Of a stretch of DNA of 64,000 nucleotides, positions 49,559 through 58,651 are shown in pieces. The notes beneath the pieces are model-generated. The model saw only the letters and a list, made by a program, of their open reading frames with translations. It was not told the DNA's origin and did no database searches. The first letter of the stretch is position 1; the number at the start of each line of letters is the position of its first letter. Location of the stretch: NCBI GenBank assembly GCA_025463765.1, contig JAODBC010000092.1:1-64000 (forward strand), in the 5' to 3' direction. The DNA is from Subtercola sp. GTDB taxonomy: Bacteria; Actinomycetota; Actinomycetes; Actinomycetales; Microbacteriaceae. The translations under genes were made by a program, and so were the position numbers.

Positions 49559-50599
49559 TCAAGCACCCGGCATGGCCAGCAGAATCTTGCCACTAGTTCC
49601 ACGAGCGAGAAGTTCGTGGGCCGCCCCGACCTCGCTCAGCTGGAAACGTGCCCCGATGACAGGTTGCAGCTTCTTCTGGCTGAGGAGCGACAATAGCGCG
49701 GTCAGGTCGTCCCGGAACCACCCCAGATGAGCGGGCACATATGTCGACGACAAATATCCGTCCAAGCCGATCCCACGGGTGAAGGTGGCAAGGGCGCTCA
49801 TCCGCACCCCACCCGCAGCGGCGCTGATAATGCCGGAGAAGCTTCGCCGACCCCCTCGCAAAGCACCCGATGCCCCGTAGGTGACAAGCTTTCCGCCAGC
49901 CCCGAGCAGGCCGAGCGACCGCCTTCCCACCGCTCCGCCCACTCCATCGAAAGCGGCGTCGATACCATCCGGCGCGATCCGACGCACCTGCCCCGCCCAC
50001 TTGCCCGTGCGATCGATGCCCTCCACCCCGCGCTCTGACAACTGTTTTACGCGGGTACCTGAAGCGGTACCGATCACGCGAAGTCCTCGCGAGACCGCCA
50101 GCTCGGCAAGGGCACTGCCGACTCCGCCGGCGGCACCGTGCACTAGAACCGTTCCACCCGCACCGACCGGGGCGACTCGAGTCAGCATTTGCCAAGCAGT
50201 GACATAGTTCAGCACTAACGCCACAGCATCGGCCGCATCAACATTCTCCGGTACCGGCGTTACGGACTCCGTCGAAACCAGCAGATGTGAGCCATACCCG
50301 CCACGTCCGTCAGTCCGCGCAACCACGCGCTGCCCGATCGAGTAACCGATGACGCCTGCTCCTACCGCATCGATTCGACCGACGGAGTCATATCCAGGCA
50401 CCACCCCGCCACCCGCGATCGGGCCTCCGAGCCCCTCCCGCAGCAGAAGGTCCCCATACGCCACCCCAGCGAACTCCGCGGCGATGCGGATTTCGCCAGG
50501 CCCGGGCGCTCCGAAAGTCCGCGGCGCAGACTGCAAAACTCCCGGACCACCACGGCGTCTAATAGCTACGACCTGCCCAACAACCTCGCTGCTGTTCAT
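49559..50599 (-). CDS. Quinone oxidoreductase-like MDR protein
   Basis: 346 residues, zinc-less medium-chain reductase: FAGVAYGDLLLREGLGG, VLVHGAAGGVGSALAELA for NADPH and the end TSGKILLAMPGA. ATG 50599 follows gagaggg. Divergent from the MarR gene at 50682 with a double palindromic operator between them, so probably induced by an electrophile or quinone-like ligand of that regulator. Confidence 0.88.
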   Translation of the reverse strand: MNSSEVVGQVVAIRRRGGPGVLQSAPRTFGAPGPGEIRIAAEFAGVAYGDLLLREGLGGPIAGGGVVPGYDSVGRIDAVGAGVIGYSIGQRVVARTDGRGGYGSHLLVSTESVTPVPENVDAADAVALVLNYVTAWQMLTRVAPVGAGGTVLVHGAAGGVGSALAELAVSRGLRVIGTASGTRVKQLSERGVEGIDRTGKWAGQVRRIAPDGIDAAFDGVGGAVGRRSLGLLGAGGKLVTYGASGALRGGRRSFSGIISAAAGGVRMSALATFTRGIGLDGYLSSTYVPAHLGWFRDDLTALLSLLSQKKLQPVIGARFQLSEVGAAHELLARGTSGKILLAMPGA

Positions 50600-50617
50600 G
50601 ATGCCCTCTCCACGTAT

Positions 50618-50660
50618 ACTTGAGTGATTCAAGCATATCAGGTGCTTGAATCACTCAAGT
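50618..50660. promoter_or_regulatory. Double MarR operator in the divergent promoter
   Basis: An 18-bp perfect inverted repeat (50618-50635 and 50643-50660, 7-bp spacer). Each arm is itself palindromic: cttgagtgattcaag at 50619-50633 and cttgaatcactcaag at 50645-50659, so two cTTGA-N5-TCAAg sites lie 26 bp apart. The gap separates the starts of the quinone reductase (50599) and the MarR gene (50682). A textbook autoregulated pair. Confidence 0.85.
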
Positions 50661-50681
50661 AATTTGCGGAACGGATCTGAA

Positions 50682-51188
50682 ATGGACATCCTCGAGCTGG
50701 CCGCTCTGCTGGAGAAGATCACCCAGGTTCACCGCACAGCAGCCGACGAGGTACTCAGCGTCAGTCACGTCAGCCCAGCGACCGCGGGGCTGTTGTGGGA
50801 GCTCTCCCGACGCAAGGAACGAGGAGCCACGATGTCAGAACTTGCTGCCGCCCTCGTCTGCGATCCTTCTTACGTGACGCTATTGGCCCGCCAACTCGAA
50901 GCATCCGGACTTGCGGAGCGCCAACCAGACGCTCAGGACGGCCGACGACGGATTCTCCGCCTCACCGACTCGGGCACCCGCACCGTCATTCTCATGACTG
51001 AAGCGGTTCGGCGGGCGTCTCCTCTCGCCGCCCTGCCAGGCGCCGACATAGAGAAGCTCACCACACGCTTCCAGACCTTGCTTCCCCCGCAACCAACCCA
51101 ACCGCCAGGGAGCTACGACGACGCCCCACCTACCGGCAGGCCGCCGACGCGGCGCACGCGTTCGAGCGCCGGAAGTTCAACGGCATGA
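50682..51188 (+). CDS. MarR-family transcriptional regulator
   Basis: 168 residues. HTH and wing: VSPATAGLLWELSR, MSELAAALVCDPSYVTLLARQLEASGLAERQP and DGRRRILRLTDSG. The last ~35 residues are Pro/Arg/Thr-rich and atypical; another frame over the same bases reads ADAAHAFERRKFNGMTDG, so the 3' end may have been altered when flanking DNA was rearranged. Likely regulates itself and the divergent quinone reductase. Confidence 0.87.
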   Translation: MDILELAALLEKITQVHRTAADEVLSVSHVSPATAGLLWELSRRKERGATMSELAAALVCDPSYVTLLARQLEASGLAERQPDAQDGRRRILRLTDSGTRTVILMTEAVRRASPLAALPGADIEKLTTRFQTLLPPQPTQPPGSYDDAPPTGRPPTRRTRSSAGSSTA

Positions 51189-51382: not shown

Positions 51383-51622
51383 CACACGATCTGCGGCACA
51401 CCGCCGCGTCTCTCGCGATCGGCTCGAACGCAAACGCCAAAGCTGTTCAGCGAATGCTTGGTCACGCATCCGCCGCAAGGACACACAGCACGTAGCGGAC
51501 CTCTTCACTGAAGACCTCGACGCGGTCACTGACTCACTCAATTCGGCACACGAAAAGCATCGGTTGGGTTTTCTTGGGCAGCAGGCATTCCTGACAACCA
51601 GAAAACCCCCCACATCCCCGTA
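51383..51622 (+). pseudogene. Tyrosine recombinase C-terminal relic
   Basis: DLRHTAASLAIGSNANAKAV and QRMLGHASAA carry the Arg and His of the integrase catalytic box, but a stop follows within ten codons. In a shifted frame ADLFTEDLDAVTDSLN continues the homology to the copy at 58165-58524. The catalytic Tyr codon is lost at the break. It ends just before the att-like repeat at 51648, the normal position of a tRNA-associated integrase. Confidence 0.8.
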
Positions 51623-51647: not shown

Positions 51648-51673
51648 GATGGCGGTACCGGTGGGATTTGAAC
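51648..51673. repeat. Attachment-site copy (tRNA-Ser 3' end), left
   Basis: Twenty-six bases identical to the 3' end of the tRNA-Ser(CGA) gene and its flank (58560-58585), diverging within the T arm. It marks a former recombination junction. Confidence 0.8.
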
Positions 51674-52208
51674 TCTTATCTGGCCCCTTGCAGCAGCTGA
51701 TATCTGTTCAAATTCCGCGGAAACTCAGGCTTCTTGACTCACCCACGAGCTGTTCGAATGATCAGCATCACACTCAGTTGTGGGCAAGAGTGGTATGCCA
51801 AATCGGCTCCAACCGCAAATGAGCGATCATCCGTTCTCATAATGACCTGGACACCGCCATCGGCGATCCGGTTTGCACCAGCGCATAACTAACCGTGCGG
51901 GCGTTATGGCTACCGCAGATCAAGATACGAACGGTCGGTCGGTAACAGCGCGCTCGGCAGCCTTCGCTGCATACCAGTCACCCTGGCGTTGAGCTTGCCG
52001 AGGATCACCATGATGTAGCCCCAAAGTGATAGTCCAGCAGCTTGCTGGACTATTCGTTCAAGGGCAGGCCACGCCCCCGAGAACGAACGCAAATAGAACA
52101 CATTTGACCCAGAGAGACCCTTCATCGCGTGAGGAGGTCATCAAGCCGGCCCCTGGTCAGCCTTTTACGAGCGATGCTCCGACTTGATGACAAACTGCAT
52201 ATGTGGGA
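51674..52208. other. Gap with island debris
   Basis: No gene that I can support. It holds the 24-bp match to 43153-43176 (at 51853-51876), a perfect 10-bp hairpin tagtccagca-gct-tgctggacta at 52030-52052, and a minus-strand open frame at 51910-52125 (71 codons) of no recognisable type. Confidence 0.45.
52030..52052. terminator. Perfect hairpin in the island
   Basis: Ten-base arms tagtccagca (52030-52039) and tgctggacta (52043-52052) with a 3-nt loop. No T run follows. It could be a terminator or a recombination or transposon end; no gene stops nearby. Confidence 0.35.
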
Positions 52209-53003
52209 ATGAGCCATCCGAACCGCGTCTTAGCGTCGACGACAACGCCAGACATTACGAAGTCCCAGCAGACGATGGGGATCCTCTGCGACCTGTGGGA
52301 CAACGCCGCTCCAGGCACGATTGAATACCGCAGCGATCTAGATGCACCGCGGGCTGTGGCCATACGCACTCAAACCCATCATGCAGTCCGAGTGTCGAGG
52401 GCAGTCCTCCAGCTCAGCCATACGACGACGGGTATCGAACTCGTCCCGCTCGTGCGACTCGTCATGGAGTGTGCAGTGACCGCAGCTTGGCTGCTTCTCA
52501 CACCTGGGTCGGGTCAGGCTCTGATTCGAGATGGAGCCAGCCAACGCCTGAAGGCGTTAGCTGGCATCACAAAGCTTGGCGAGGATCCAGGCCCCGCGAA
52601 GGAGCAAGCAGAGGACGCGCTCGCTCAACTCGAGAACGCGAAAGCTCCGCGGTCATTCGCGTTCGAGCAGCGATGTCTTCGACTTGAAGGTGGTCAGCGC
52701 ATCTACTTGACCTACCGGGCTTTTTCAGCAGAGTCACACAGCGGAATGGGTATCGCAGACTTCTACTCCGTTGCGACTCCAGCGAGTCCGATCGGTGTCG
52801 TCTTCAACCCAGACGCGTCAAGTAGCGTCCGAACGCCGACGCTTGGCGTTGCGGCCTGCATGCTCCTGTTGGCGATCAACGCCGACGAAATTGCTCGTGC
52901 CAAGCCCACCCACTCGACACAGATCACGAAGGCGGCGAAGCGGCTCGGAGTCGGTACCCGGATCGTCGCGTCAGACGGAACCGAACTACCGCCGCGAGTT
53001 TGA
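52209..53003 (+). CDS. DUF5677-like helical protein, island cargo
   Basis: 264 residues, mostly helical. The segment AVRVSRAVLQLSHTTTGIELVPLVRLVMECAVTAAWLLLTPGSGQALIRDGASQRLKALAG is reminiscent of DUF5677/AbiV-like proteins (R...E..A..AWLL), a helical group often found in defence or mobile contexts. I am not sure of the family. GTG 52203 is an alternative start. GC content is lower than in core genes, in keeping with acquisition. Confidence 0.55.
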   Translation: MSHPNRVLASTTTPDITKSQQTMGILCDLWDNAAPGTIEYRSDLDAPRAVAIRTQTHHAVRVSRAVLQLSHTTTGIELVPLVRLVMECAVTAAWLLLTPGSGQALIRDGASQRLKALAGITKLGEDPGPAKEQAEDALAQLENAKAPRSFAFEQRCLRLEGGQRIYLTYRAFSAESHSGMGIADFYSVATPASPIGVVFNPDASSSVRTPTLGVAACMLLLAINADEIARAKPTHSTQITKAAKRLGVGTRIVASDGTELPPRV

Positions 53004-53130
53004 ACGAATCTCCGCGCGGAATTCGATGGCTCCGCAGCCCCCTGTTTGGGTCGAAACTACTTCCTGCCGTCGATGTTAGCGAACGGTTGGGCGCGGGGAC
53101 CCTCCCGAGAGGGATCGGTACTCTGGGGTC

Positions 53131-53583
53131 GTGAAAGTTGCCGCGCTAAAGACGCTGAATGAGCAGATCCGATTGGGCAAAAGTCGGCTGTTTCACGGCG
53201 GATTTCCGGGACAGCAGGTGGGCGGTTTCATCGACCCTCCAGCGGTGTCTGGAGCGAAAAGCATGAGGGGCGAGTCGGAACGAGAGGGCCTCGGCAACAT
53301 CACCACTTCCGTGAGCCTGGTCTACGTGACGACCGAACGATCCCTCGCGACAGCCTTCGCCGCCTACTGGGCAAAGCGCCACCCGGGACGCGGACGCGGC
53401 TGGCTCTATCGAGTCGAGCTGGATGATGTCGATCTCGTGCCAGACAATGACTTCCCGCGCGGGCCGTTCACCTGCTTCCAACTGCCCCGGGCCCGCGTCG
53501 CGGCGATTCTCGACCGGGGAGTGGATCCAAATGATCAACGGCACGCCCGCGAGATTCGACGCTTCGTCGAACACCTTGGCTAA
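53131..53583 (+). CDS. Small protein resembling rifampin-type ADP-ribosyltransferases
   Basis: 150 residues. SRLFHGGFPGQQVGGFIDPPAVSG, then VSLVYVTTERSLATAFAAYW, GWLYRVELDDVDLVPDND recall the Arr fold (FYHGT...VGDLI, YVYLTxxxxxA, YxVEPxG). His22, a Tyr at 71 and Glu/Asp near 100 could be the NAD site, but the match is from memory and partial. GTG start at 53131. No partner antitoxin is obvious; it may be a toxin, modifying enzyme or resistance gene. Confidence 0.45.
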   Translation: MKVAALKTLNEQIRLGKSRLFHGGFPGQQVGGFIDPPAVSGAKSMRGESEREGLGNITTSVSLVYVTTERSLATAFAAYWAKRHPGRGRGWLYRVELDDVDLVPDNDFPRGPFTCFQLPRARVAAILDRGVDPNDQRHAREIRRFVEHLG

Positions 53584-53687
53584 GAGCACGCGAGCACGAT
53601 ACTGAGGGCGCTGAGCTCACCAGCCCAGGCTGGAGCTGCTGCCTTAGCGGCACACCGCCAAACGTGCACGAGCGTGCGCGGGCCTCC

Positions 53688-53803
53688 TCACCCGACGTGG
53701 AAGTCGCGTTCCTCGGATCGGTCGAGCTTGCACGGCGACTCGGCGTGGCTTCGGAAGACGTCCTGGATACCGACGAGAAAATCTTGTCCTACTTCCTCGA
53801 GTA
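53688..53803 (+). pseudogene. Possible C-terminal fragment of a lost gene
   Basis: A plus-strand frame reads PDVEVAFLGSVELARRLGVA and SEDVLDTDEKILSYFLE before a TAG, with a sensible amphipathic helix, but no start or domain upstream in 53584-53687. Too short to identify. Confidence 0.25.
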
Positions 53804-53822
53804 GCGCCTACCCGCACGAAGG

Positions 53823-54209
53823 CTACCGGAAATTCTTTGCGGAGTACGTCTCATTCGGGTGGCCGGTAACGGCTCTAGTGATGACCACCCGGCCGCGCTT
53901 CTTCGACTTCGCAGTGGGCTCGTCGACGACGTACCAAATGCGGGCGCCGTCAGTGACCTTGTACTGCCACTGCGGTAGCTCCACTCCGTCGACGATGACG
54001 ACTGCCAAGTCCCCTTTGAGGCGGTAGCACCGGGAAGAGTCGAACAGCGCCGGATGAATTCGCAGATAGTCGTGAGCATCCGCGAGAGCATTCTTCGCGA
54101 CCGCCTTGAGGTCACCCCAGCCCCGCTCAGCAGAGGCGCTGCCAAAGAAGATCTCGTACTCGCTGCCTTTCAGCGGTCGGGGAACAGGGATGTCGCGCTT
54201 CCCAGCCAT
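53823..54209 (-). CDS. Type II toxin (RelE/ParE-like, partner of the PhD-like antitoxin)
   Basis: 128 residues. GSEYEIFFGSASAERGWGDLKAVAKNALADAHDYLR, then LKGDLAVVIVDGVELPQWQYKVTDGARIWYVVDE and VVITRAVTGHPNET give the helix-helix-sheet layout of RelE/ParE-like toxins with the family's C-terminal basic strand (KKRGRVVITRAVTGHP). Starts directly after the antitoxin stop (no gap). A fragment of a close relative is at 47299-47416. Target, ribosome-bound mRNA or gyrase, cannot be decided. Confidence 0.75.
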   Translation of the reverse strand: MAGKRDIPVPRPLKGSEYEIFFGSASAERGWGDLKAVAKNALADAHDYLRIHPALFDSSRCYRLKGDLAVVIVDGVELPQWQYKVTDGARIWYVVDEPTAKSKKRGRVVITRAVTGHPNETYSAKNFR

Positions 54210-54647
54210 CTACGGGCGTTCGACTCGCACCTGAGTGGTTGGCAACTCGATCGGCTCGACCTGGCGCATCCCCATCGCGTACGCCAGCGCCGTTTCCTGC
54301 CATTCTTGCTGCGCCCGCAGCAAACGATCGTAAGAACCCAGCTCGCTTGACGAATAAACCAGCTGCTCGATCTCAGCCGCGTACGAAGAAAGCTCATCGG
54401 GTGAAAATTCGGCAGTCCACGCGAACAAGTCGCTCAGCGCTGCAACGACATCGTTCTGATTCCGGCCGATCGCCCGGATCAGTCGGCTCGAGAGAGCCGT
54501 GCCGTTCTGGAGCACGTCGAGATCATGGCCGCGCAAGATAACCAGATCATCACCGTCGCGACGCGTGATGCGAACCTGGCCTTCATCGATATGGGCCAGA
54601 ACCTCCCTGGGCTTGCGAAGAAGGTCGGTGAAAGTCGCGGTACTCAT
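54210..54647 (-). CDS. PhD/YefM-like antitoxin with C-terminal extension
   Basis: 145 residues. STATFTDLLRKPREVLAHIDEGQVRITRRDGDDLVIL is the Phd/YefM DNA-binding unit; the helical C-terminal ~85 residues (AALSDLFAWTAEFSPDEL, RLLRAQQEWQETALAYAMG) would wrap the toxin. It is first in the operon and has an inverted repeat 13 bp upstream of the ATG. Confidence 0.82.
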   Translation of the reverse strand: MSTATFTDLLRKPREVLAHIDEGQVRITRRDGDDLVILRGHDLDVLQNGTALSSRLIRAIGRNQNDVVAALSDLFAWTAEFSPDELSSYAAEIEQLVYSSSELGSYDRLLRAQQEWQETALAYAMGMRQVEPIELPTTQVRVERP

Positions 54648-54660
54648 CGCTCTAGACTAC

Positions 54661-54678
54661 ATCAGATAAACATCTGAT
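54661..54678. promoter_or_regulatory. Palindromic operator of the toxin-antitoxin operon
   Basis: Perfect 7-bp arms atcagat (54661-54667) and atctgat (54672-54678) with 4-bp spacer, immediately upstream of the antitoxin start, where Phd-type antitoxins bind their own promoter. Confidence 0.65.
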
Positions 54679-54854
54679 TGATCGAATAGCGGGCTCACAG
54701 CGACTGTAATGAGCCTATCGAGAGCAGACCGATGACGTTCCGTAGTCTGATCCCGAGGCCGATCGCATGGCCAGGGTCGATCAGACACTTGTGGGTGAGT
54801 TGTGGGCAAATCACGCCCACACAGAAAGCTAAGGCCGCTCTGATCAGGGGTTTT

Positions 54855-54882
54855 ATGGCGGTACCGGTGGGATTTGAACCCA
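54855..54882. repeat. Attachment-site copy (tRNA-Ser 3' end), middle
   Basis: Twenty-eight bases identical to 58561-58588 in the tRNA-Ser(CGA) gene. It is the junction between two tandem islands. No integrase relic was found immediately to its left. Confidence 0.85.
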
Positions 54883-55038
54883 AATCACTTCCGGGTAGAG
54901 GCGCTCCAATGTCTAAAGAACCGCATGATTTCGCCGATTTAGAGCCACATGTGATGACCAGAAACACGGATGAATTCGTCCGACTGTTGCCAGTTTGTTG
55001 CCATCAACAGGGGTTTGCCCCTCTTTCAGAAGGACGTA

Positions 55039-55269
55039 TCAGCGTCGGCCCAGCCCGGGCAGGCCCCCGCTCGACGCCCGTATGCTCCCGCCCTCTTTTC
55101 GGGCGGCCTTCTCCTCGGGCGTCGGTGGCAGCCCGCCCTGACACCACCTTCGCTCGGCATAGTCGAAATGCGCAGGGAGTAGTCCATCCGCCTTGGGACG
55201 CTGGCGTAATCCGCACGTCGGGCACTCTCGCTTGCCGTCAGCACCGACGTGGCTCGTTTGCTCGCTCAT
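55039..55269 (-). CDS. Small zinc-finger-like protein, 76 aa
   Basis: MSEQTSHVGADGKRECPTCG opens it; a CPTC pair, a His in LLPAHFDY and a Cys in RWCQGG give a CxxC...H...C zinc site as seen in small proteins of actinophages and actinobacterial islands. The tail is basic and Gly-rich. Start ATG 55269. Function unknown. Confidence 0.5.
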   Translation of the reverse strand: MSEQTSHVGADGKRECPTCGLRQRPKADGLLPAHFDYAERRWCQGGLPPTPEEKAARKEGGSIRASSGGLPGLGRR

Positions 55270-55581
55270 GACAGAATCGTAGCCGAATGGAATTTCACGC
55301 CGGCCCGATCAGCCCGCGCTTCGGATCACCCGATTCTGCAAAAAAATGGCAGTCGATGATCGCTCGCCAATGTGTGACACACACTGCGTAGACGAGTCCA
55401 GATGCATCGACAGTTGTTCGCTCGGTGGCGGCTTCGCCAATGATTCAGTTCTCTACGACGCCCCCGTAACGAACGTGCCTGCCCATAGGGGGTATCCAGC
55501 GTTCACGAGCCATATGAGACCGCGCTCGTAACGTACCGAGTCGTGCCGCATCGAGCGGTTCGCCCTCGGTATGCTTTCGCC
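55270..55581. other. Non-coding gap upstream of the two-gene cassette
   Basis: Lower-GC than the core genome. No gene, palindrome or clear promoter hexamers could be supported; the promoter of the 336-aa protein must lie here. Confidence 0.35.
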
Positions 55582-56592
55582 ATGCCGACTGAGCCGCGCG
55601 ATGACGCGAAAACCGCGGATTCGAAGCCCAATAGATCTTCGCAGCAGCGAGAAGAAGCATCTCCGCCTGTCGCCTCGGCGGAAGAGGGGCTCTGGTTCTC
55701 GCACTCGCCGAACCCGATCGATGTGCAGATTTTCAAGATCAATCGTCGGCCGATTCGCTCGGCAACCCTCTCAACGTTCGAACCTCCTGAGGACGTGATA
55801 GAGCATTTCAAAGCTGCACTGGCAGGATCGCTGACAGCAACAAGCGGTCGGCGCTTTCGCCGGCAGTGGCGGATTGGGAATCTCCAATTCGACCCTGACG
55901 GCTCGTACAGCACAGGCAGAATCGGTTGGACTCGACTCGACAAAGAGCTGGCTGATACGTGGGATGAGGAAACGAAGTCGTTTCGAGAACACCTCGTAGA
56001 CGTAGAAAGTTCGGCCGTAGCACCATTCGCGTTTCTGCGCGCCGGGGAGCTCCTTGGAGTGCTCCGGCACCCCTCGTTCACCACCGATGAGACCATCAAC
56101 AGGGTGTTTGAACAGTTACTCAACAAGGGAGAGCTGTCGCTCGAATCACCGTCAGCATCGTGGCACGTTGATCCAGTCGGAGATCACGAAGAGTTTCAGG
56201 CGTGGCTCGACGAAATGGAACAAGTACTGTCCATCACTCTCCGTATCGAACGGCCGAACCCGGATGGGGCTGATGAGTTCGAGGCCATCGAACGAAGGCT
56301 CGATGCTCTCGACGCCCAATACATTAGCGAGACAGTGAAGGCTCTTGACGAGACGGTTGGGCTGAACAAAGCTGGACTCAGTTCCGACACAACGATACGT
56401 GGTCTGATTGGCGCTGCCATGCGGTCATACGGCTTCGTCACTGCACGGGGTCGCAAGAACGGGCGTCAGCGGAAATACGACCAGCGTAAAGAGCAACTTC
56501 GCAAGCCAATCGACAATGTCGGTGCTGATTGGGATACTGCAACCGACAACGTATTGAAGGCGGTTAGGTCCGCGGGAAGACCAAGCGAATGA
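55582..56592 (+). CDS. Unrecognised 336-aa soluble protein coupled to a membrane protein
   Basis: No known domain recognised. The N-terminal ~45 residues are charged and probably disordered. The middle (WFSHSPNPIDVQIFKINRRP, ALAGSLTATSGRRFRRQWRIGNLQF, GRIGWTRLDKELADTWDEET) looks like a beta-rich domain with basic patches; the C-terminal third is helical (EEFQAWLDEMEQVLSITLRI, FEAIERRLDALDAQYISETVKALDETVGLNKAG) and ends with a strongly basic stretch (TARGRKNGRQRKYDQRKEQLRKP) that could bind nucleic acid. Start ATG 55582. Its stop overlaps the start of the membrane protein by 4 bp. In an island at tRNA-Ser, so it is accessory. Two-part sensor/effector function is a hypothesis. Confidence 0.65.
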   Translation: MPTEPRDDAKTADSKPNRSSQQREEASPPVASAEEGLWFSHSPNPIDVQIFKINRRPIRSATLSTFEPPEDVIEHFKAALAGSLTATSGRRFRRQWRIGNLQFDPDGSYSTGRIGWTRLDKELADTWDEETKSFREHLVDVESSAVAPFAFLRAGELLGVLRHPSFTTDETINRVFEQLLNKGELSLESPSASWHVDPVGDHEEFQAWLDEMEQVLSITLRIERPNPDGADEFEAIERRLDALDAQYISETVKALDETVGLNKAGLSSDTTIRGLIGAAMRSYGFVTARGRKNGRQRKYDQRKEQLRKPIDNVGADWDTATDNVLKAVRSAGRPSE

Positions 56593-57143
56593 ACAAGCTA
56601 CGGCGCGAGGTGGGCTTTTGGGGCTCTGTCGGCCGGCTAAAGCTGAGTCAACTGCTCAGCGTGGAGTACGTTTCGAGCCTCCTGTTCGGCGTTGGCGCCG
56701 CTATCTTGCTAACGATGTTCGGCTCGCTCGATTCTCGGATCAGCGTGGCGGGCGATTTCTTGACAATTGCCCCCGCACTTGTCGGCGTGGTATTCGCTGG
56801 AATGGCGCTCGTCGTTGCTTTGATGTCAGATGCTTACATGCGTTTGCTGGCGGAGTCCGAGAGCGGCATCACGGGCTTTTTGAGTCCATTCATGATCGCG
56901 CTCGGCATTCAAGTTTCCACGGTCGTGGGCGCGGTTGGTTACCGCGCCTTCGCCCCGTTCATGTCGTCCGAAACGGAACCGTGGGTATTCGGCGCGCTGT
57001 GCGTCATCTTCATCGCCTCATGCCTGGAGCTTGTCGTATTGGCTCGCAACGTTTTTATGCACGCGCGACTCCGAACGCGATTGCAGGAAGCAACAGTTTC
57101 GGAGTTCCAACGAGTTCGACAGTCGAAAGCGTCGAATCAGTAG
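56589..57143 (+). CDS. Four-helix membrane protein, partner of the 336-aa protein
   Basis: 184 residues with four predicted transmembrane helices: about 26-46 (EYVSSLLFGVGAAILLTMFG), 57-80 (TIAPALVGVVFAGMALVVAL), 95-115 (FMIALGIQVSTVVGAVGYRAF) and 130-151 (VFGALCVIFIASCLELVVLA), then a basic cytosolic tail. No enzyme motif. ATGA overlap with the upstream gene shows coupled translation. The layout of a soluble partner plus a small 4-TM protein resembles membrane-effector defence pairs such as Kiwa in plan only; I see no sequence match. Confidence 0.7.
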   Translation: MNKLRREVGFWGSVGRLKLSQLLSVEYVSSLLFGVGAAILLTMFGSLDSRISVAGDFLTIAPALVGVVFAGMALVVALMSDAYMRLLAESESGITGFLSPFMIALGIQVSTVVGAVGYRAFAPFMSSETEPWVFGALCVIFIASCLELVVLARNVFMHARLRTRLQEATVSEFQRVRQSKASNQ

Positions 57144-57146
57144 CGA

Positions 57147-57359
57147 TCAGGTGGCGCCCCACGCCAGCCTGAGCGTCTCGCATAGCTCTAACAAAACGGC
57201 GGCCGCAGCTGAGTGCTTCGCGCTCTTGGTTTCGTCGTCCATGATCGCCGCGAGATCCAGCCCGATCTGAACGATGTCATCGAATTCAGGGTGCTCGTCA
57301 GAGCCCATCGCGGTGAGACTGGTTCGCCACGCGCTGACATGGTTGCCATCGGCAGTCAT
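57147..57359 (-). CDS. Small hypothetical protein, 70 aa, phage-type cassette
   Basis: MTADGNHVSAWRTSLTAMGS then DEHPEFDDIVQIGLDLAAIM and a helical end (SAAAAVLLELCETLRLAWG). Overlaps the terminase-small-like gene by 4 bp (ATGA). Converges with the membrane-protein gene with a 3-bp gap. Unknown function. Confidence 0.55.
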   Translation of the reverse strand: MTADGNHVSAWRTSLTAMGSDEHPEFDDIVQIGLDLAAIMDDETKSAKHSAAAAVLLELCETLRLAWGAT

Positions 57360-57634
57360 GACGTTTTCTGCTCTCTCCTGAGCCGCTCGGCTCGTTCTCT
57401 GAATTCGTCTAGCTCGCTCTTCGGTGCGGGCACCCTGACTCCGGCGGTCGCTCGCCCCAGATCCTTCAAGGCAGAAAGATACGCGCCGGCAAGACGCGCT
57501 GATGGGCCGGCGGCTCCGGCCTGGTCTACCTGATCGGCGAGGGCTCGACACAGTGCGACGATCGGGCCATGAATTGGTGACTCGTCGAGCTTCGCGGCGG
57601 CCACAGCGCCGTCAACGGCCTCGCGGTTGCTCAA
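57356..57634 (-). CDS. Phage terminase-small-subunit-like protein
   Basis: 92 residues from TTG 57634 with gggagag upstream. LDESPIHGPIVALCRALADQVDQAGAAGPSARLAGAYLSALKDLGRA resembles the short terminase-small proteins of actinobacteriophages, which sit between an HNH gene and the large terminase. HNH is indeed upstream here; no large terminase follows, so the packaging module is incomplete. Confidence 0.6.
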   Translation of the reverse strand: MSNREAVDGAVAAAKLDESPIHGPIVALCRALADQVDQAGAAGPSARLAGAYLSALKDLGRATAGVRVPAPKSELDEFRERAERLRREQKTS

Positions 57635-57740
57635 AGGTCATCTCTCCCTAAGGTGTTGGTAAAAAAGACCGGAGAGGGACGACCACTCACGCTGGGACTG
57701 CCGGCTGAGAGGGGTTGAGGCTGGATTTTCTGAGCGAGTG

Positions 57741-58049
57741 TCACCACCAGTCGGGCACCGCTTCGCCGAGGCCGGGGCTCGGTGCTTTCGCACCACGACT
57801 CTTGTTGCATGCTGCGTGGCTGTGCCGGGCGTTGCTCGGGTCGCCTTGCAGCTCGGGGTAGTTGCGTACTGGCTTGAAGTGGTCGAGGTTGTGGCTATCG
57901 GGTGTTGTGTTCGGTGCCACCTGATAGTCCACACGTTGCGAACAAATCCAGCAGTTCGCTGCAGGGTCACCCTGGGCATCCAGTCGTTTACCTTCGGCGA
58001 AGAACTCTTCTCGCAGTCTGTGATCGGCTGCTGTGTTAGTGCGTGCCAT
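57741..58049 (-). CDS. Phage-type HNH endonuclease
   Basis: 102 residues. CWICSQRVDY provides a CxxC zinc pair, DSHNLDHFKPVRNYPELQGDPSNARHSHAACNKSRG the HNH core (His-rich DH...N..HSHAACN). Such enzymes are encoded next to the terminase in many phages and assist packaging. Start ATG 58049 follows gaggga. Upstream sequence joins the integrase fragment. Confidence 0.82.
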   Translation of the reverse strand: MARTNTAADHRLREEFFAEGKRLDAQGDPAANCWICSQRVDYQVAPNTTPDSHNLDHFKPVRNYPELQGDPSNARHSHAACNKSRGAKAPSPGLGEAVPDWW

Positions 58050-58164
58050 TCCCTCACGTCTCTTCGGGTTCGGACCTGGGTAATGCGGGAGCCTCGCCTG
58101 ACCCCAACCACAGTGTTTGGCGAAGCTCCCGCACGCTCGTGCACAGCTGTGCATGAGGCGACGC

Positions 58165-58524
58165 GCGCGTGACGCGCTTCTCTTCGGAGACGGTCACAGC
58201 CACATGCACCTACCTCACTCCCTTCGCGGGTGGTTCTCGTCGGCAGTGAAGAAGTCACAGACGGCCGACAAGACGTTCGCCAGGGTGACGGTGCACGACA
58301 TGCGGCACACCGCCGCGAGTCTCGCGATCTCGGCCGGCGCAAATGTGAAGGCCGTGCAGCGGATGCTCGGCCATGCCTCTGCAGCGATGACCCTCGACAC
58401 CTACGCCGACCTATTCGACGACGATCTCGATGCAGTTGCCACGGCCCTCAACAAGGCCAAGAATTCTGCAGATGTTGCCAAAGCGTTGCCAGACGCGCAC
58501 TCTGCGCAAAGAAAAACCCCCTAA
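58165..58524 (+). pseudogene. Tyrosine recombinase, C-terminal catalytic part only
   Basis: About 115 residues of an integrase catalytic domain: LLFGDGHSHMHLPHSLRGWF, VTVHDMRHTAASLAISAGAN with Arg, LGHASAAMTLDTYADLF with His and the nucleophile Tyr. The N-terminal ~250 residues (arm-binding, core-binding and first catalytic Arg) are absent, the break being near 58165 next to the divergent HNH gene. The intact tail ends 37 bp before the tRNA-Ser att site. Non-functional alone. Confidence 0.85.
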
Positions 58525-58559
58525 CTTCCGCATGAACAAAGGGAAGCAGGGGGTTCGAA

Positions 58560-58588
58560 GATGGCGGTACCGGTGGGATTTGAACCCA
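58560..58588. repeat. Attachment-site core in the tRNA-Ser gene, right
   Basis: The tRNA 3' half up to the T arm and the base beyond CCA, repeated at 54855-54882 (28 bp) and 51648-51673 (26 bp) in the same orientation. It is the intact (tRNA-reconstituting) junction. Confidence 0.88.
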
Positions 58589-58651
58589 CGGTGCTCTTTC
58601 AAGCACACATGTTTTCGAGACATGTACCTTCGGCCGCTCGGACACGGTACC
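58562..58651 (-). tRNA. tRNA-Ser (anticodon CGA), intact, with encoded CCA
   Basis: Acceptor ggtaccg/cggtacc, discriminator G and encoded CCA; anticodon stem catgt/acatg around ctcgaaa (CGA); long variable arm (gtgctt...agagcac) as for serine; T arm gtggg-ttcaaat-cccac. The 3' 28 bp are repeated at 54855 and the last 26 at 51648. Confidence 0.95.

Follow-up and report, generated by a model that had tools for sequence, protein, structure and literature searches.

The window, as the whole stretch of 64,000 nucleotides analyzed here is called, carries two intact genes on the same strand that overlap by 4 bp through a shared ATGA, as had been predicted. The pair lies close to an intact tRNA-Ser gene, and the features of this part of the window are as follows:

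54855-54886, plus strand: att-like repeat of the 3′ end of tRNA-Ser that bounds the pair's segment on the outside
55582-56592, plus strand: gene 1, soluble protein of 336 aa, proposed RexA/DUF4747-like sensor
56074-56508, plus strand: part of gene 1 matching phrog_10040 (E = 1.1e-5, whole-genome search)
56589-57143, plus strand: gene 2, four-helix membrane protein of 184 aa, proposed RexB-like effector
57741-58154, minus strand: actinophage-type HNH endonuclease, left over from the carrier prophage (phrog_338, E = 6.4e-19)
58117-58524, plus strand: C-terminal remnant of a tyrosine integrase (Pfam Phage_integrase, E = 5.3e-11)
58561-58592, plus strand: repeat, att at the intact tRNA-Ser
58562-58651, minus strand: tRNA-Ser (cga), intact, the integration target

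Neither gene product reached a Pfam or NCBIfam model above its cut-off, and PADLOC gave zero matches at E ≤ 10 for either window protein, in line with the earlier view that gene 1 encodes no recognized domain. Of the weak Pfam matches, gene 1 had its strongest to Met_gamma_lyase (E = 0.13) and gene 2 to Tetraspanin (E = 0.032), and PDB sequence searches with the pair yielded nothing better than E 0.5. The gene 1 protein starts with a polar stretch, disordered by eye, and carries a basic segment at residues 289-312 with a net charge of +7. The original prediction had the protein end in a strongly basic helix; the basic stretch is there, but it is followed by a tail of 24 residues. AlphaFold models built from one and from two sequences had mean pLDDT values of 38.3 and 33.7, too low for use in judging whether the two-domain, RdgC-like fold of RexA is present.

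The 3′ end of tRNA-Ser(cga) is present three times, at 51649, 54855, and 58561, which agrees with the predicted island at tRNA-Ser, and the pair is located in 54855-58561, the segment adjoining the intact tRNA gene. The three copies look like the outcome of serial integration at one tRNA. Judged by its sequence, the 3.7-kb remnant that carries the pair is a degenerate prophage; the two genes of the pair are intact, and the integrase alongside is truncated. XerC/XerD-type NCBIfam models also matched the integrase remnant, below their cut-offs. Of 50,697 phage records, 306 matched the HNH gene at E ≤ 0.001; the phage packaging relics of the original prediction are a fair description of this gene and a putative one of the smaller open reading frames (ORFs). 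The GC content was 0.56 to 0.58 in the pair, 0.69 to 0.70 at 59.5-61 kb, and 0.56 to 0.61 at 48.0-49.5 kb on the other side, so that composition alone does not mark the island.

Two stretches, 51385-51494 and 58294-58403, share 72% DNA identity and each adjoin an att copy. The latter is an integrase C-terminal remnant by its Pfam match, and the former is another by its similarity to the latter; together they point to serial integration of related elements at the one tRNA-Ser. The second segment between att copies, 51649-54855, contains a DUF5677-like gene at 52203-53003 (Pfam E = 1.1e-4, below cut-off) and, at 53131-53583, a gene for a 150-aa protein with no Pfam or NCBIfam match that is ADP-ribosyltransferase-like by eye. 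In the same segment, two minus-strand genes look like a toxin-antitoxin pair; 54210-54647 matched a PhdYefM antitoxin weakly (E = 0.0069), and 53823-54209 had no match. A perfect inverted repeat of 19 nt, with 7 nt between its arms (50617-50661), is situated between a quinone-reductase-like gene (49559-50632, minus strand) and a MarR-like gene (50646-51188, plus strand), both named by eye, and is probably the operator of the MarR-like regulator.

In a search of 236 genomes of the class, the own genome included, a true homolog of gene 1 was found in 1 of the 235 others, G509, which belongs to a different family (E = 4.4e-83). The next gene there is the homolog of gene 2, in the same order as in the window and at a distance of 15 bp, and it also encodes four hydrophobic segments. 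Identity to the window proteins was 44% (44 to 45%) for gene 1 and 57% for gene 2. The 19.9 kb of G509 around its pair (locus L051) contain, in order, ppc, a P-loop ATPase of the Sll1717 type (over the NCBIfam cut-off at E = 2.6e-62), a 242-aa orphan, and a C5 DNA methylase (Pfam E = 2.7e-70). The pair comes next and is followed by a trpB-like gene and a UvrD helicase. The ATPase also matched an antiphage model at E = 3.7e-10, far below that model's cut-off. The ATPase, the 242-aa protein, and the methylase form a gene set (L051 5194-9558) adjoining the pair, and the 242-aa protein, for which no Pfam, PADLOC, or NCBIfam match was obtained, is possibly a restriction enzyme. No tRNA was found in L051, and no prophage gene was recognized in these 20 kb among the listed ORFs of at least 110 aa, 8 of which were scanned with Pfam. 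By its gene content, the G509 copy sits in what appears to be a chromosomal defense-type neighborhood.

The second genome keeps both genes, as proteins and as neighbors, so the pair is not a product of chance. Between the window and G509, gene 1 differs at 0.667 of third and 0.340 of second codon positions and gene 2 at 0.690 and 0.207, a ratio of two to three in both genes. The nonsynonymous divergence (dN) was 0.57 for gene 1 and 0.38 for gene 2 with synonymous divergence saturated (NG86 dS undefined), as expected for proteins under selection. The sequences upstream of the two pairs had no convincing stretch in common. The two genes are known to occur together from two loci; that they are paired in different families and in two different mobile or defense-type contexts argues for a functional pair. 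The original prediction had named, as outcomes that would speak against it, homologs standing apart in core genomes or a match to a housekeeping family. Neither was seen: the two genes stand side by side in the only other genome identified.

The pair is rare. No copy of gene 1 turned up in the 397 further genomes sampled from its own family or in 160 other genomes of the family of G509. It had no close relatives in genome contigs or viral contigs and none by tblastn in phages or plasmids, and gene 2 had none in viral contigs, phages, or plasmids. With the G509 proteins as tblastn queries, the gene 1 homolog gave partial matches only, at E 0.9 or worse, and the gene 2 homolog none in phages. 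Matches to gene 1 at E 0.009 to 0.77 in 37 further genomes, returned by the same class search that found G509, were short and partial and were taken collectively as noise. The gene 2 search matched 1 of 395 other genomes of the phylum at E ≤ 0.001; this match (E = 1.0e-4) was rejected, as it lies inside a 532-aa ORF that is a lactate permease by eye.

The C-terminal half of the gene 1 protein (residues 166-309) matched phrog_10040, a phage family of unknown function, at E = 1.3e-5 in the PHROG search, and the G509 homolog matched it in the same register at E = 0.016. At E ≤ 10, gene 1 and its homolog were the sole reported phrog_10040 match in each of the two whole genomes. Used as a bridge to further relatives, the family identified none in 295 other genomes of the class at E ≤ 0.001, in 9 archaeal genomes and records at E ≤ 0.1, or in 170 genomes of one haloarchaeal family at E ≤ 0.01. 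Control genomes matched as well, namely, Haloferax volcanii in the class search, two in the archaeal and haloarchaeal searches, and five in the whole-genome search at E ≤ 10, and the profile therefore also catches distant or chance matches.

On the same part of the gene 1 family falls a signal for Pfam DUF4747, obtained with the G509 homolog at E = 0.015 for the full length and E = 0.0064 for the C-terminal half, both below the Pfam cut-off. These values allow for 24,736 families and correspond to about 6e-7 and 3e-7 for a single family named beforehand; the two-gene layout and a motif had suggested a DUF4747/RexA-like gene 1 ahead of any DUF4747 profile match. The match is hardly stronger than some surely meaningless ones, such as Tetraspanin (0.032, with gene 2) or NDUS4 (0.034), the latter obtained with the same G509 homolog. 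Window gene 1 itself had no DUF4747 match in Pfam, and neither the window genome nor G509 was flagged at E ≤ 10 when searched as a whole with the Pfam models of DUF4747 and RexA. A DUF4747 search of 246 genomes of the phylum returned one match, below cut-off, which was rejected as an FtsQ-like protein by eye.

The predicted 184-aa protein with four transmembrane (TM) helices was borne out for gene 2, in which a Kyte-Doolittle scan detected four hydrophobic segments at about residues 28-46, 60-78, 98-116, and 133-151. The ends of the protein are basic, and the loops carry almost no charge. Five K/R residues fall in the N-terminal 27 residues, seven in the C-terminal 33, and one in each of the three loops, and by the positive-inside rule both ends are predicted to be cytosolic (N-in/C-in). 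In the comparison with the G509 homolog, the N-terminus (21/27 identical), TM2 and TM3 (14/19 each), and the inner loop (12/19) were better kept than TM1 (5/19), TM4 (10/19), and the outer loops (6/13 and 8/16). This pattern, drawn from two sequences, partly fits a cytosolic side that faces a sensor. The predicted cytosolic C-terminus is poorly conserved (15/33), which does not fit, as the idea of sensor docking would not predict it. In gene 1, 13 of 24 residues are identical in the basic segment and 14 of 24 in the tail behind it.

A soluble gene followed on one strand by a gene for a four-helix membrane protein is also the layout of lambda RexA/RexB (PF15969/PF15968). Weak HHpred matches to DUF4747 are reported for lambda RexA, Sbash gp30, and CarolAnn gp44 (PMC6426596, PMC6426606) and a very weak one, with E = 140, for Butters gp30 (PMC7542560), and each of these four proteins is paired with a four-helix membrane protein (PMC6426596, PMC6426606, PMC7542560). 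The pairs Sbash gp30/gp31, CarolAnn gp44/gp43, and Sejanus gp46/gp45 (phrog_36224/phrog_38328) resemble the window pair in their actinobacterial hosts, in their overlapping or adjacent genes, and in combining a soluble protein of 356 to 372 aa with a membrane protein of 148 to 178 aa, but they have no detectable sequence similarity to it, and the window proteins matched neither phrog_36224 nor phrog_38328. In Mycobacterium phage Sejanus (2513-4064, locus L019), the homolog of the CarolAnn-type RexA is 35 to 37% identical and adjoins a small hydrophobic protein, gp45, which matched phrog_38328 at E = 1.1e-5. The hydropathy scan, at the threshold used, detected three segments, not four, in Sejanus gp45 and DumpsterDude gp43.

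Direct comparison with these systems remained within the range of decoys, that is, 106 ORFs of at least 140 aa from the window and L051, some of which are overlapping frames and not genes. In hhalign with gene 1, lambda RexA (a profile of n = 4 sequences, 76 to 100% identical to RexA) ranked 25th, the CarolAnn group (n = 3) 41st, DumpsterDude gp44 alone 6th, and the CarolAnn group with DumpsterDude added 17th; with gene 2, RexB ranked 52nd, the CarolAnn partner group 44th, and DumpsterDude gp43 18th. Single-sequence hhalign had no power. The best local alignment with lambda RexA joins gene 1 residues 120-163 to RexA 61-106, the place expected by eye, and is only suggestive, its score lying within the decoy range. 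The Pfam and PADLOC models of RexA and RexB were matched by neither the window nor the G509 pair, a criterion that does not discriminate, since 0 of 4 Rex-like actinophage proteins (CarolAnn gp44, Sbash gp30, Sejanus gp46, and DumpsterDude gp44) match a Pfam model. As a control, BLASTP at E < 0.1 does not link the soluble proteins of lambda, the CarolAnn type, and Butters to one another, so the failed direct comparison excludes little. We infer homology of gene 1 to RexA, with the direct comparison standing within the decoy range.

The genetic surroundings were compared in the same way. A cI-like repressor adjoins the pair in lambda and CarolAnn, is separated from it by other genes in Sbash and Butters, and is thus not universal; none adjoining the pair was seen by eye in the ORF lists of either copy or in the Pfam scans of part of them. 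Operons of the "DUF4747/CarolAnn" type are treated as immune operons in a study that places them at 17 of 443 capK loci and reports 88 of 443 capKS immediately downstream of a predicted restriction-modification (R-M) system (PMC13373217). The G509 copy resembles them in that its gene 1 homolog weakly matches DUF4747 and adjoins a DNA methylase, but the described operons follow capK-capS, and by eye no capK or capS adjoins the window or the G509 copy. Association with R-M or other immune genes, namely, the C5 DNA methylase and the Sll1717 ATPase, was seen in the G509 copy only. A Salmonella paper describes a DUF4747 gene adjoining a hypothetical gene (PMC11181664). RexABpp (PP_5643/PP_5644) of Pseudomonas putida is a cryptic-prophage pair with a four-helix effector, whose kinship with RexA is reported as visible by HHpred and structure, not by BLAST (PMC12894663). 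The same paper, of January 2026, counts five RexAB-like systems in all, in four of which the membrane protein is the effector.

From these comparisons, the pair is probably a two-gene abortive-infection module that works like RexA/RexB, with a sensor and a membrane effector. Plainly observed are the two genes, the four hydrophobic segments, the pairing in two genomes of different families, and the phrog_10040 match, together with the location in a prophage remnant in the window and in a defense-type setting in G509. The gene 1 product, as putative kin of RexA/DUF4747, would be a cytosolic, probably nucleic-acid-binding sensor, and by analogy with RexABpp, CarolAnn, and Sbash (PMC12894663) its trigger may be a phage component or a DNA-protein intermediate. 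The gene 2 product would be an inner-membrane protein of four helices whose two ends lie in the cytosol and which stays silent until the sensor is activated. In the proposed sensor-to-channel signaling, the activated sensor would engage its cytosolic N-terminus and central loop, whereupon it would permeabilize or depolarize the membrane. Cell growth would stop before the phage matures and the infection would abort, which would constitute the anti-phage activity of the pair.

An assignment of roles as in Butters gp30/gp31, where the two proteins act differently from those of other Rex systems, would make gene 1 a cytotoxic or antiviral effector and the membrane protein a tether that silences it until infection. 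The gene order, the gene overlap (8 bp in Butters), and the soluble protein with a four-helix partner are shared, Butters gp30 is reported as sufficient against some phages (PMC7542560, PMC12894663), and the conserved basic segment of gene 1 could bind nucleic acid. Similarity of the pair to the Butters proteins was not above noise, however, the membrane protein is the effector in most of the RexAB-like systems counted, and gene 2 is the better conserved partner (57% versus 44%), which leaves the reversed roles unlikely. It is more doubtful still that the pair mainly tuned the lysis-lysogeny switch of its carrier phage, as proposed for lambda RexA, and is now a relic. RexA can bias the switch of lambda without RexB (PMC11077077) and the window copy lies inside a degenerate prophage, but by eye neither a repressor nor a Cro gene adjoins either copy, both genes are intact although the adjoining integrase is truncated, and the G509 copy neighbors a DNA methylase and the Sll1717 ATPase in surroundings where no prophage gene was recognized.

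A pair with no role in defense, such as a regulator combined with an envelope protein or a small membrane transporter, that came by chance to lie on a prophage and in a defense neighborhood is of similarly low probability, if anything slightly lower. The below-noise direct similarity to RexA and the number of known loci, two, would be compatible with it; the two different mobile or defense-type contexts, the absence of gene 1 from the other sampled genomes of its family, and the overlap of the phrog_10040 and DUF4747 signals within gene 1 speak against it. Least probable is a Kiwa-like system, the comparison drawn in the original prediction. Kiwa combines a small four-helix membrane protein (KwaA) with a cytosolic protein (KwaB, DUF4868), and the likeness extends to this general plan only. 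PADLOC, which we take to contain Kiwa models, had no match to the window proteins (E ≤ 10) and no Kiwa model among its matches to the G509 pair (E ≤ 0.1), and no DUF4868 occurred among the Pfam matches of the window or G509 proteins. RexAB and its DUF4747-type relatives offer the better comparison.

With Kiwa set aside, the guess of an anti-phage or abortive-infection module made of a sensor and a membrane effector has become the best-supported reading, and it was strengthened by the G509 pair adjoining a C5 DNA methylase and a Sll1717-type ATPase. The description of the module as new seems to hold for the sequence family but not for the kind of system, and the pair is best classed as a divergent and apparently undescribed form of the design that joins RexAB/DUF4747 to a four-helix protein. 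In the literature on phrog_10040, DUF4747, DUF4868, and RexAB, a scope that excluded most subscription journals, no description of this sequence family was recognized. More speculatively, the pair may represent an undescribed family of RexAB-like sensor-channel pairs with its own sensor fold and trigger, which moves between prophages and actinobacterial chromosomal R-M islands instead of being merely prophage baggage, and which may act as a second, suicidal line behind restriction.

The pair was invisible to PADLOC and to Pfam and NCBIfam above cut-off, so further RexAB-like members are easily missed by annotation, the more so because the lambda, CarolAnn-type, and Butters proteins do not find each other by BLASTP. 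The two diverged pairs offer conserved membrane-protein surfaces that could be used to probe the docking of the sensor. An additional group that is represented once in a prophage remnant and once next to a chromosomal DNA methylase would support RexAB as a widespread immune design and not a peculiarity of lambda.
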